Source: Elusimicrobiaceae bacterium (GTDB lineage Bacteria; Elusimicrobiota; Elusimicrobia; Elusimicrobiales; Elusimicrobiaceae). From it: 14,025 nt of DNA. Positions 8,458 to 12,896 of the stretch are shown piece by piece. A program made the position numbers and the translations under genes. Every line of letters begins with the position of its first letter. The first letter of the stretch is position 1. The DNA is taken from contig JAGCKY010000072.1 in the NCBI GenBank assembly GCA_017647245.1, forward strand, positions 1 through 14,025. The letters run 5' to 3'. The notes under the pieces are model-generated. The model was given only the letters and a program-made list of their open reading frames with translations, made no database searches and was not told the DNA's origin.

Positions 8458-8579
8458 TTACAGTTTGGGCGGTGCGGGAGGCATATTCGGTACAATCGGA
8501 TTACCTTCCTCATCTAAAGAGACGGCTCCTTTTAAGAACACATCTTCTGACACCGGTACCCCTTTTGATTTAAAATCAT
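8458..8579 (-). other. Out-of-frame C-terminal tail of the TadZ-TadA fusion
   Basis: Shifting frame at about 8580 opens a 40-codon reading that begins HDFKSKGVPVSEDVF, continues through AVSLDEEGNPIVPN to a Pro-rich end (APPKL), and stops at 8460-8458, only 4 bp before the tadB ATG. The first part matches the usual C-terminal pattern of TadA/CpaF ATPases (Phe, about eight residues, Gly, Val-Pro, Asp-Phe), and the acidic/proline composition is protein-like. In the annotated frame the same DNA gives an atypical ending that includes YRCQKMCS. This is best explained as the true end of the fusion gene displaced by a one-base deletion near the T-run at 8585-8582. Confidence 0.7.
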
Positions 8580-10733
8580 GGAAAATGTAGGCAATTTGCC
8601 CGTCGGCGCGAATACCCCTTGCACTTTGCCGTTTTCATCTACACCCGTTTGCACATAACGGAACAAATCGGTAGATTGGATTTTTCCGTCTTTTTGTCCG
8701 TGCATTTCCGTGATATAGGTCACCTTTCTGGAGCCGTCCGAAAAACGCGACAGCTGCACAATCATATTGACGGCCGATGAAATCATTTCACGGATAGCAA
8801 AAATAGGCAAATCAGCGCTGGCTTGCATACACATGGCTTCCAAGCGCGATAATCCGTCGCGCGGAGAGTTGGCGTGAATAGTTGTCAGAGATCCCTCGTG
8901 ACCGGTATTCATTGCTTGCAACATATCCAGTGCTTCCGCGCCGCGGCACTCACCCACTACAATGCGGTCCGGACGCATACGCAAACAGTTTTTCACTAAA
9001 TCTTGTATGGTAATGGCACCTTTGCCTTCCACGTTGGACGGGCGGCTTTCCAAAGATACCCAGTGCGGTTGTTGCAGACGCAACTCCGCCGTATCCTCTA
9101 CCGTAATAATACGCTCATCATCAGCAATATAGCCCGACAGCGCATTTAAGAAAGTAGTTTTACCGGTACCCGTACCGCCGCAAACAATAATGTTTTTGCG
9201 GATACGCACGCATTTTTCCAAGAACTCCATACATTCCGGCGTAATAGTACCAAAGCGGAAATAATCTTCCGGTCCGAACGGTTTTTGCGAGAAACGACGA
9301 ATGGTCAACGTCGGACCCGACACCGCCAGCGGTGCAATAATAGCGTTCACACGCGAACCGTCTTTCAAACGGGCGTCCACCAGCGGTACAGATTCGTCAA
9401 TACGGCGGCCCAGCGGGGCTACAATACGTTTAATCACTTGTATCACCTGATCATTGTTTCTAAATTTGTATTTGGTCAGCGTAAGTTTACCTTTTTGCTC
9501 AATGAAAATCTTATCAAAGGCATTGACCATAATTTCGGTTACGCTGGGGTCGCGCATTAAAGTTTCCAAAGGTCCCAAACCTAAAATTTCGTCCAATAAT
9601 TCATAATCAAAACGCGTGCGCTGGTCGCGTGAGAATTGCAAGTTAGGTTGTTTTTGCAAAATATCATCTACAATAGCGGCCACCCGTTTGCGGGTCTGTG
9701 CGCTGGCGGCACTTTCGTCGCTAATCACAATACGTTCTATTTCCAACGTGCGGACTACTTCTTTGTGAATTTTCTGCTTTAAATCATCCCAAAAGGAAAG
9801 TTTGGTCTTGGAAAGTTCATCTTCCCCTTCCACCGCAACGTGATTACCGGCCGCTGCGCCACCGGCACCACCGGCAGACAATATCGGCGCCCAAATTTCT
9901 TTGGCCGCTTGGGTAAATTCTTCATCACTTACCGACGCAGTCCAATCTTTCGGGGCGGGTTTAATATCACGGATTTTGGCTAATACCAAACGCAACCCTT
10001 TAATCCATTCGGATTGCGGATTGGAAATAATTTCCACTCCTTTGCGGTTGGACGTAGCCATAATGCCTTCATCCCACGGCAAAAATACCGTAATATCACG
10101 TCCTAAAGAATTGTAAAATTTTTCCACTTCTTCGTACGGAATAGAACCCGGCATATCATACTGGTTGCAAATTACGCTGATACGCTCCATAGGATAGCGT
10201 TGCTCTTTGTAGTCATTGAACAACTGTACCGTGGAATTTAAATGCGTACGGGTAGCGTTGGACACCCAGAAAATTTTATCGGCGATATCAAATGCAAACG
10301 CCTGCATCGGAAAAGACGAATCTACATCTAAAAAGATATCAAAAGTTTGTGCCAAGCGTGACAAAATAGGAATTAAAATTTTAGGGCTGATAGCGGCAAT
10401 CTGCGCACGCGTATGTCCCAGAGGCAACACACCTACACCCCATTGCGACATAGAAATTTTTCCGCGCAACAATCCCCCTACTACCGCTATATTAGAATTT
10501 CCCAACGTGCGTAAAATATCTGCCACGCTGACGGGTTTTTTAATGTCTAAGTAAAAACTATGTTCTTGGCGTGCCAAAGGGTCCAGAGGAACAATAAGCA
10601 CCGGACGCTTTTGAATGCCTGCCCAACCCAGCGCCAAATTAAGCGTCAAAGTCGTTTTGCCTGCGCCCTCTTTCGGAGAGGTCAGCGCAATAATTTTAGA
10701 TTCATTTTTTGCGTTTTCCAATGCTTCTGCCAT
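8532..10733 (-). CDS. tadA: TadZ (CpaE)-TadA (CpaF) fusion ATPase, C-terminus frameshifted
   Basis: A 733-residue fusion of two proteins that are usually separate. Residues about 1-260 are a MinD/ParA-like TadZ/CpaE domain with a deviant Walker A (SPKEGAGKTTLT, 19-30) and later strands FDIFLDVDSS and ISVICNQYD. The N-terminal receiver-like domain of many CpaE proteins is absent. A Gly/Ala-rich linker (about 285-300) joins it to a TadA/CpaF secretion ATPase (about 312-717). That part shows the N-terminal domain (LGLGPLETLMRDPSVTEIMVN), Walker A GGTGTGKTT (519-527), the Asp box (ITVEDTAELRL), Walker B (RPDRIVVGECRGAE) and the His box (HEGSLTTIHAN, 612-622). ATP hydrolysis by this hexamer powers pilus assembly, and TadZ positions the machine, which here would be locked in a 1:1 ratio. 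After PTF (715-717) the frame appears shifted by one base; the natural end is probably at 8458. The start lies 5 bp after the secretin stop codon. Confidence 0.92.
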   Translation of the reverse strand: MAEALENAKNESKIIALTSPKEGAGKTTLTLNLALGWAGIQKRPVLIVPLDPLARQEHSFYLDIKKPVSVADILRTLGNSNIAVVGGLLRGKISMSQWGVGVLPLGHTRAQIAAISPKILIPILSRLAQTFDIFLDVDSSFPMQAFAFDIADKIFWVSNATRTHLNSTVQLFNDYKEQRYPMERISVICNQYDMPGSIPYEEVEKFYNSLGRDITVFLPWDEGIMATSNRKGVEIISNPQSEWIKGLRLVLAKIRDIKPAPKDWTASVSDEEFTQAAKEIWAPILSAGGAGGAAAGNHVAVEGEDELSKTKLSFWDDLKQKIHKEVVRTLEIERIVISDESAASAQTRKRVAAIVDDILQKQPNLQFSRDQRTRFDYELLDEILGLGPLETLMRDPSVTEIMVNAFDKIFIEQKGKLTLTKYKFRNNDQVIQVIKRIVAPLGRRIDESVPLVDARLKDGSRVNAIIAPLAVSGPTLTIRRFSQKPFGPEDYFRFGTITPECMEFLEKCVRIRKNIIVCGGTGTGKTTFLNALSGYIADDERIITVEDTAELRLQQPHWVSLESRPSNVEGKGAITIQDLVKNCLRMRPDRIVVGECRGAEALDMLQAMNTGHEGSLTTIHANSPRDGLSRLEAMCMQASADLPIFAIREMISSAVNMIVQLSRFSDGSRKVTYITEMHGQKDGKIQSTDLFRYVQTGVDENGKVQGVFAPTGKLPTFSMILNQKGYRCQKMCS

Positions 10734-10738
10734 AGTTA

Positions 10739-11473
10739 TTATTCCACTACTTCTACCGTGATGAACAAGAAGAGCGAGCGTTGCTCCTCGGTTACGTCTT
10801 TGTATTTAAATAACATACCAATCAAAGGCAAACGGCCTAAGAACGGCACGCGTGTTTCGCTGACGTTGCGGAAACTGCTTTTGAGTCCGCCGATGACCAA
10901 TGTTTCACCGCTGTTAAGCTCCACATGTGTTTCCACATCGCGGTTGGTAAAAGACGGAGCCGTAGCCGTTCCCACCGAAACCGTACGGGAATAGTCTACA
11001 GACGATACAGAAAGCTGCACTTGCAAGTCAATAATACTGCCGCGTTCCGGGATAATCGTGGGCAATACGTTGAGCAAAATACCATATTCTTCCAATTGAG
11101 ATCCCACGCCCTGATTGTTTACCACCGGTATAGGCACTTTACCGCCAACGGTAATTTTCGCGCTGTTACCCGAGCTGGTAACAATTTTTGGGTTGGATAA
11201 AATTTGCGCACGGCCTTCCGTTTCCGATAAGCGCAAACGGGTAATTACAGCCGTCTTACGGGCAAATTCTCCCAAAGATAAGATACCCGGGATATCCGCT
11301 TCTTCAAAGTCAAAGATTTGGTTCCATTCAAACCCTTTAGCAGATGTCATAGCACCACCGATTTCTACCACATCTGCACTGACGGCCACCAACTGCGTTT
11401 TTTTGGCAAACGCGGCCGGAGCGGCCAACAGCAAACACATTGCAAGTAATGTAATTTTTTTCGTAAATTTCAT
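10739..11473 (-). CDS. cpaC: Short CpaC/RcpA-type secretin
   Basis: A 244-residue outer-membrane secretin for the Tad pilus, with a signal peptide (about 1-23, AAPAAFA-KK). Directly after it comes the start of the secretin homology region (LVAVSADVVEIGG). Then follow ILSNPKIVTSSGNSAKITVGG (about 91-111), GILLNVLPTI, LQVQLSVSSVD, VETHVELNSGETLVIGGL (about 180-197) and the family signature VPFLGRLPLIGMLFK (209-223), ending in an LFLFITVEVVE strand. All landmarks of the barrel-forming domain are present. The N-terminal BON/N-domain region that brings most Tad secretins to well over 400 residues is missing, and there is no space upstream for it. The gene starts 17 bp after the cpaB stop with a weak AGGA site. 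I consider it intact but minimal. A separate N-domain partner could exist elsewhere. Confidence 0.9.
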   Translation of the reverse strand: MKFTKKITLLAMCLLLAAPAAFAKKTQLVAVSADVVEIGGAMTSAKGFEWNQIFDFEEADIPGILSLGEFARKTAVITRLRLSETEGRAQILSNPKIVTSSGNSAKITVGGKVPIPVVNNQGVGSQLEEYGILLNVLPTIIPERGSIIDLQVQLSVSSVDYSRTVSVGTATAPSFTNRDVETHVELNSGETLVIGGLKSSFRNVSETRVPFLGRLPLIGMLFKYKDVTEEQRSLFLFITVEVVE

Positions 11474-11490: not shown

Positions 11491-12243
11491 TTATTGAAAT
11501 AATTTCTCAAAAGTCGCAATTTCCATCTGATACATATTTACATCGCCCGGAGAGCGCAACACCACCGAGAGATTCCCTTCTTCCCGCGCCAATGCCAAAT
11601 ACTGCGCATCACGCGGAGACAAAGCCAAGCTTAATGCTGTACTATCGGTGTATGCGGCAGAATCTTCTTCTTGGTTTCTCAAGGCAGCTGCCGCTTTAGC
11701 ATCCAACCCCTGCCCCAAATTTGCCCCTACACCTAATACGGTAATCGCCTGCAACAAGGTAACCGTTACCCGTTGGCGTGCACCGCTTTTCATCATTGCT
11801 TCAAAGGTGAGTAAAATATCCACTTTATCATCCGGCTTAATCATGCTGGCAACATTGTTGTCCACCGTCATCACAAAGCCTCTTAATTGCACTGGGATTT
11901 TGCTGGAGAGACCCACCTCCGGAGAAAGAGAGGTGACCGCATATTTAGAAACTTGGTTTCCTTTCGGGATTTGCACACGCGCAATTGTGTTTTACACCTT
12001 GTCTAAATCCGAGGCATTGCTATATGTAAAAGCATCTTTTTGTACGTAAGCCGCCGGAATTTTGACCGGTTTTAAATACTCGCCTCTAATGACTTCACGC
12101 TCTTTAATATCGCGCAACGTTACCAAAACGGTCTTCATCGCCTTGGCATCGTTGAGACTTTTCTCTGCGTTGTGAACTAACATAGCATATATCCCTGCTG
12201 CTATTAACGCCAGCAACAATGGAAGCATAATCCCTTTTCTCAT
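11491..12243 (-). pseudogene. cpaB: RcpC/CpaB pilus assembly protein, interrupted by in-frame TAA
   Basis: Two reading frames (12243-11992, 83 residues; and onward to 11491) are in the same phase and are separated only by one TAA at 11994-11992. Read through, they make a normal 250-residue CpaB/RcpC protein: a membrane helix (about 5-24), a SAF domain (VLVTLRDIKEREVIRGEYLK), then SDLDKV-stop-NTIARVQIPKGNQVSK, where the family has its second conserved element, and the C-terminal RcpC domain (FVMTVDNNVASMIKPDDKVDILLTF, VLGVG, LSLALSPRDAQYLALA). A CAA to TAA change would explain it. The gene has a strong AAGGAG ribosome-binding site 6 bp before its ATG. The downstream half has a possible GTG at 11976 but no Shine-Dalgarno sequence. 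RcpC normally modulates the secretin/pilus at the outer membrane or periplasm. It may be a pseudogene, an assembly error, or a gene expressed by readthrough. Confidence 0.85.
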
Positions 12244-12380: not shown

Positions 12381-12896
12381 TCATTTGCCAAGAGACATCC
12401 GGCTTGATCCTTTTGTATCCGAACTGGCATACGTTTTTTCTACCGGCATACGCGTGGTGGCTTTTACCCGGCGGATACCGTCTCTTTTGGGCTCGCTGGC
12501 CAGTAGCCAGCTCGTTCCCGGAAACGCCAACCGTACCGGATAAGTTACCGTGACGATTACATCTTCATGCCGATGTCTTCTATACATCACGTCTTGGCCC
12601 GTAGTTTGCACCGTTGCCTGTACTGTAATACGTTGCGCTTCCGAGCCAAATACTTTTTGTTTGGCCGCATTAATACTGCTGGTGATGCGGCTTTTACTGG
12701 CCCTATCGCTGGGTTTAGTAGAAGCTACCAGCGCGCCAATACGGGCAAATTCATAGGAGGCGTGATTGGCCAAAATAGTGTGATAGGCGATATTTCCGTA
12801 TTCTAATACGAAAAATACCATCAGCATCAGTACTGGTAAAATGAGTATCAATTCTACCGTAATCTGCCCCTCACACCTCCTATGAAAAATTGTCAT
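12381..12896 (-). CDS. tadE: TadE-like pseudopilin
   Basis: A 171-residue protein of the TadE/TadF type. A short basic leader (MTIFHRRCEG) ends at a class III prepilin site: Gly10 followed by QITVEL, with Glu at +5. One hydrophobic helix (about 15-37, LILILPVLMLMVFFVLEYG) then leads to an extracytoplasmic domain containing the usual ANHASYEFARIGA segment and a beta-rich C-terminal part (VIVTVTYPVRLAFPG). The length is typical. It is a minor pilin or pseudopilin for the Tad pilus, expected to need a TadV-type peptidase, which is not encoded here. It lies 20 bp after the second Flp pilin gene, with AGGACGG as ribosome-binding site. It ends in TGA, and the in-frame extension past that codon is short and not family-like. 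Confidence 0.88.
   Translation of the reverse strand: MTIFHRRCEGQITVELILILPVLMLMVFFVLEYGNIAYHTILANHASYEFARIGALVASTKPSDRASKSRITSSINAAKQKVFGSEAQRITVQATVQTTGQDVMYRRHRHEDVIVTVTYPVRLAFPGTSWLLASEPKRDGIRRVKATTRMPVEKTYASSDTKGSSRMSLGK

Follow-up and report, generated by a model that had tools for sequence, protein, structure and literature searches.

The tad cluster and its interrupted cpaB/rcpC gene

The window analysed here is the whole of a 14,025-bp contig (G000:C59) from a fragmented draft MAG of an uncultured gut member of the Elusimicrobiaceae, which comprises 1,117,011 bases in 188 contigs and is 78% complete. It carries a tad cluster in which cpaB/rcpC is accompanied by genes for a secretin, a TadA-type ATPase, two T2SSF proteins and a TadE-like protein, all matching above Pfam cut-offs, and by two small pilin-like ORFs beside cpaB whose matches lie below the Pfam cut-off only (Table 1). 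Read on the minus strand from its ATG at 12243, the cpaB/rcpC ORF runs for 83 codons to a TAA at 11994-11992; past this stop, 166 more codons are open in the same phase until a second TAA at 11493-11491. The 83-residue piece, in which a hydrophobic stretch near the N-terminus was seen by eye, matches positions 2-76 of TIGR03177 (CpaB) with 26.7 bits (E 3e-6), under the whole-protein cut-off of 71, and matched no Pfam family in a Pfam profile search. The 166-residue piece matches positions 81-219 of the same model (73.3 bits, cut-off 71) as well as PF16976 RcpC (60.3 bits, cut-off 28.8). Since the two pieces match neighbouring portions of a single model, share a phase and are separated by one codon, the arrangement is not due to chance: a single cpaB/rcpC gene, 12243-11491 on the minus strand, is split by the TAA at 11994-11992, as an earlier note on this DNA had proposed in describing one cpaB gene with a single in-frame stop between two in-phase halves. 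In total the gene has about 250 codons and belongs to the TIGR03177 and PF16976 families, like other CpaB/RcpC Flp (Tad) pilus assembly proteins, and it has tad neighbours. It differs from them, in this record only, by the lack of one uninterrupted reading frame, a single stop standing at codon 84. This stop had been placed after the SAF domain; the intact copy P0001, described below, has a sub-threshold SAF match at residues 38-97 (15.7 bits, cut-off 21), which includes codon 84, so that the stop lies within the SAF-like stretch and not behind it.

Table 1. Coordinates of the cpaB/rcpC pieces, the stop between them and neighbouring tad genes in the window
Feature	Position	Strand	Description
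cpaB/rcpC upstream piece	11992..12243	-	83 codons; AAGGAG motif before ATG; includes the hydrophobic segment at the N-terminus and the greater part of the SAF-like region
Premature in-frame TAA (codon 84)	11992..11994	-	Open in 56 other matching genomes; sense residue in 118/118 aligned relatives
cpaB/rcpC downstream piece	11491..11991	-	166 codons and normal TAA; RcpC domain; TIGR03177 81-219, PF16976; 166/166 identical to P0001
tadA-type ATPase gene	8461..10733	-	CbiA/MinD-like N-terminal part and T2SSE; frame broken near 8582-8585, C-terminal tail in another frame
Short secretin (cpaC-like), 244 aa, intact	10739..11473	-	PF00263; 244 aa in four relatives compared
TadE-like gene	12381..12896	-	PF07811

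A second interruption lies in tadA. The product of this gene in the window (8532-10733, minus strand) has 733 residues, and the other 119 proteins among the best 120 of 7633 matches have 753-840. When aligned to the window, the TadA proteins of all four relatives compared follow one frame down to 8559 and another frame beyond, and the comparison places the break (within 8461-8600, minus strand) in a short stretch of T residues near 8582-8585. This seems to be a homopolymer-type lesion, its cause being presumed, and the shift affects only the poorly conserved C-terminal tail. The earlier note had dismissed homopolymer error as a cause of the cpaB stop, rightly as far as that gene is concerned, and made no mention of the lesion that seems to be present in its neighbour. 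At TadA residues 376-377 the window has a pair found in none of the 119 others among the matches listed, with invariant neighbours. The ATPase also combines a CbiA/MinD-like domain (residues 15-230) with a following T2SSE domain in one protein, an arrangement likewise present in the precomputed annotation of most TadA relatives among the matches listed. In the secretin, the Secretin domain occupies residues 84-244, and short secretins look normal here, given the equal length in the four relatives.

Privacy of the stop and a near-identical intact copy

Matches to the downstream half were found in 57 of the 61 genomes searched, four having none. In each of the 56 matching genomes besides this MAG, the best match lies in an open frame of 245-293 aa with no internal stop, and the corresponding frame of the MAG (G000) is open for only 166 aa; as judged from these assemblies, the TAA is private to this MAG, occurring in one of 57 matching genomes. 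A protein database yielded 540 matches to the downstream half, of which the best 120 were examined; exclusion of P0002, the window's own product, and of P0080 (212 aa) left 118 full-length relatives. In their alignment, a check on related cpaB genes that the earlier note had suggested, a sense residue occupies the position of codon 84 in all 118, from the best 120 of 540, and glutamine in none, so that the CAA codon from which the stop was thought to have arisen by a C-to-T change lacks support as the original codon.

The protein P0001, of 250 aa, is encoded intact on a separate 10,356-bp contig and is nearly identical to the interrupted gene, sharing 166 of 166 residues with the downstream half and 81 of 83 with the upstream half. 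Overall, 247 of 250 positions are equal, and all protein differences fall at codons 81, 82 and 84. When three codons were drawn at random from 250, only 60 of 200000 draws placed all three within four consecutive codons; codons 81 and 82 vary among relatives in the alignment, and so this clustering is suggestive only and may partly be strain variation. A search with the 83-residue piece alone found the exact 83-aa product on no contig besides the window's; its sole other match was P0122, a 142-aa protein of 88% identity which reads on past the site.

Constraint on the gene was estimated from 17 recovered relatives, five of which were compared with the window. Against the closest of these, dN is 0.244 in the upstream and 0.086 in the downstream half, with dS of 1.35 and 1.55, respectively; across the five, dN ranges over 0.242-0.327 upstream and 0.086-0.178 downstream, dS being above 1 where computable. 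Among four relatives themselves, dN is 0.062-0.277 upstream and 0.014-0.099 downstream, so that the window's values are at or above most of those between relatives. The relaxed constraint of a long-standing pseudogene was thus not found, dN being far below dS in both halves, which speaks against long decay; with dS saturated and the window somewhat more distant, constraint is shown and a slight relaxation is still compatible with the values. The stop, if real, would be very young, of which the identity with P0001 is a stronger sign than dN/dS.

Other lesions in the assembly

Two further genes of the MAG are interrupted in a comparable manner. A gene for a LolD-like ABC ATPase on contig G000:C20 (L102:1153-1812) is interrupted by a single in-frame TAA some 33 codons short of its end; among 41 genomes searched, the frame measures 221-295 aa in 37 of the 38 other matching genomes, the remaining one (G017) having a partial match of 167 aa. 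In mutS on G000:C5 (L210:2-2346), a frameshift splits the gene over two frames, and both pieces match MutS. The mutS frame has at least 850 aa in 37 of 40 other genomes, the three shorter frames having 556, 664 and 703 aa, and two of these adjoin a contig start. A single substitution signature behind both in-frame stops was considered and rejected, as the residues of relatives at the two sites argue against a common origin.

The rate of such lesions was estimated by comparing relatives' ORFs with 41 pieces of the MAG (292,831 bases, window included), smaller first scans of 17 and 38 genes having been enlarged to 82. The scan flagged four of the 82; on inspection three proved genuine, and the fourth, with five stops and 46% identity, was set aside. 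The same scan of three relatives as controls flagged 8 of 87 genes (G022), 1 of 52 (G014) and 2 of 130 (G015); all 11 flags, from 269 genes, were set aside as antisense ORFs or stops before the usual start, one of them (L125:14538-15014) being doubtful. After sorting, the MAG has 3 lesions in 82 genes and the three relatives none in 269 (Fisher 0.012), or 0.041 if the doubtful control is counted in; addition of the tadA tail frameshift, which the scan did not flag and which stands outside the 3 of 82, gives 0.0028. The unsorted flag rates are alike (4/82 against 11/269, Fisher 0.76), and the excess of lesions therefore depends on the author's manual sorting. In the tad region of a further relative's MAG (G024, L058), 3 of 14 genes were flagged, for two frame changes and one stop, the stop uninspected, so lesions of this kind also occur outside the present MAG.

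Were the lesions real, they could be joined in one account, in which a gut Elusimicrobiaceae lineage recently lost mutS by frameshift, became a mutator and has since been accumulating frameshift and nonsense mutations, two of which fall within its Tad pilus genes. We regard this as improbable.

Origin of the stop

It is probable that the TAA reflects an incorrect base in the consensus sequence of this fragmented draft MAG. This is one of the causes that the earlier note had listed, and a recent nonsense mutation, the other leading reading, was likewise among its options; the interpretation it gave is partly supported overall. The observations underneath are the stop itself, its privacy, the near-identical intact copy, the clustered differences and the other single lesions in the assembly, from which we infer an origin of the lesion in the assembly rather than in the cell. 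Occurrence in 1 of 57 genomes, equality with P0001 at 247 of 250 positions and the lesions in the LolD-like gene, mutS and the tadA tail favour a consensus error, and against it stand the dependence of the lesion excess on sorting and the variability of codons 81-82. If the consensus is wrong, the gene would be an ordinary Tad-pilus cpaB/rcpC and the organism would produce an intact CpaB of normal length (about 250 aa), presumably a periplasmic component of the pilus machinery that is anchored in the membrane. False stops produced by assembly are an already known phenomenon: passages of PMC11017572 describe how low coverage and low read quality introduce spurious frameshifts and internal stops into assembled bacterial genomes. 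The present case resembles the spurious pseudogenes of those passages in that single stops or small frameshifts affect scattered, unrelated genes which are whole in relatives; it differs in that the study worked with RefSeq assemblies, with simulated reads and with subsampled reads that were assembled anew, whereas here the cause is deduced. Before a biological meaning is given to an isolated in-frame stop in a fragmented MAG, caution calls for a comparison with near-identical copies and with the frequency of lesions across the entire assembly.

The main rival, possible though less likely, is that the sampled strain has really acquired a nonsense mutation very recently, by which CpaB would be lost and with it a working Tad pilus. 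The lesion concerns a single codon, as such a mutation would, and the same cluster contains a second lesion in tadA; two lesions within one pilus cluster would fit real pilus decay as well. In Pseudomonas aeruginosa, according to passages of PMC12307814, Tad function requires rcpC, and an RcpC that lacks the N-terminal helix remains cytoplasmic, so by analogy neither cpaB piece alone should be able to replace the whole protein. Yet the LolD-like ATPase gene and mutS, which are conserved and unrelated to pili, have been hit too, the low dN relative to dS in both halves argues against long decay, and it is odd for one point mutation to come with differences at three of four consecutive codons. 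If real, the stop would mark one gut Elusimicrobiaceae strain as having recently lost its Tad pilus. Whether it is an error or a very recent one-off mutation, the stop is ordinary.

Production of a full-length protein by readthrough or recoding of the TAA, another option of the earlier note, would accord with the conservation of both halves, but is very unlikely, because the stop is found in no relative (0/56 other matching genomes, 0/118 aligned relatives), the genes for both RF1 and RF2 are present with no stops inside, and, as far as the 78% complete MAG shows, no stop-reading anticodon occurs among the 36 tRNAs found. It was rejected on these three grounds. Of the 14 window ORFs interpreted as genes, 11 also end in TAA, the shifted tadA frame included, in agreement with the earlier view that codon reassignment is unlikely. 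A special RNA structure at the stop was rejected as well, the fold around it being unexceptional (z -1.79, with 6 of 200 shuffles folding at least as well).

No more credible is a gene fission into two proteins, the second restarting after termination at an in-frame GTG (11976). This GTG starts 15 bases beyond the stop, but by eye no Shine-Dalgarno-like motif stands at a proper distance before it, which confirms what had been said of the downstream half; moreover, the gene is split in no other matching genome, and the second product would be without the membrane helix that RcpC requires for its membrane location, as passages of PMC12307814 have it.

Among solved structures, none matched P0001 by sequence at E up to 1. 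A plasmid origin was rejected, a 901-base stretch having no match in the plasmid collection searched. The 24 named loci that match the cpaB region mostly bear the names Elusimicrobiaceae, Elusimicrobiales or Elusimicrobium in their titles, the closest with 86% identity in the downstream half, and five of the titles name reindeer, roe deer, water buffalo or sheep.
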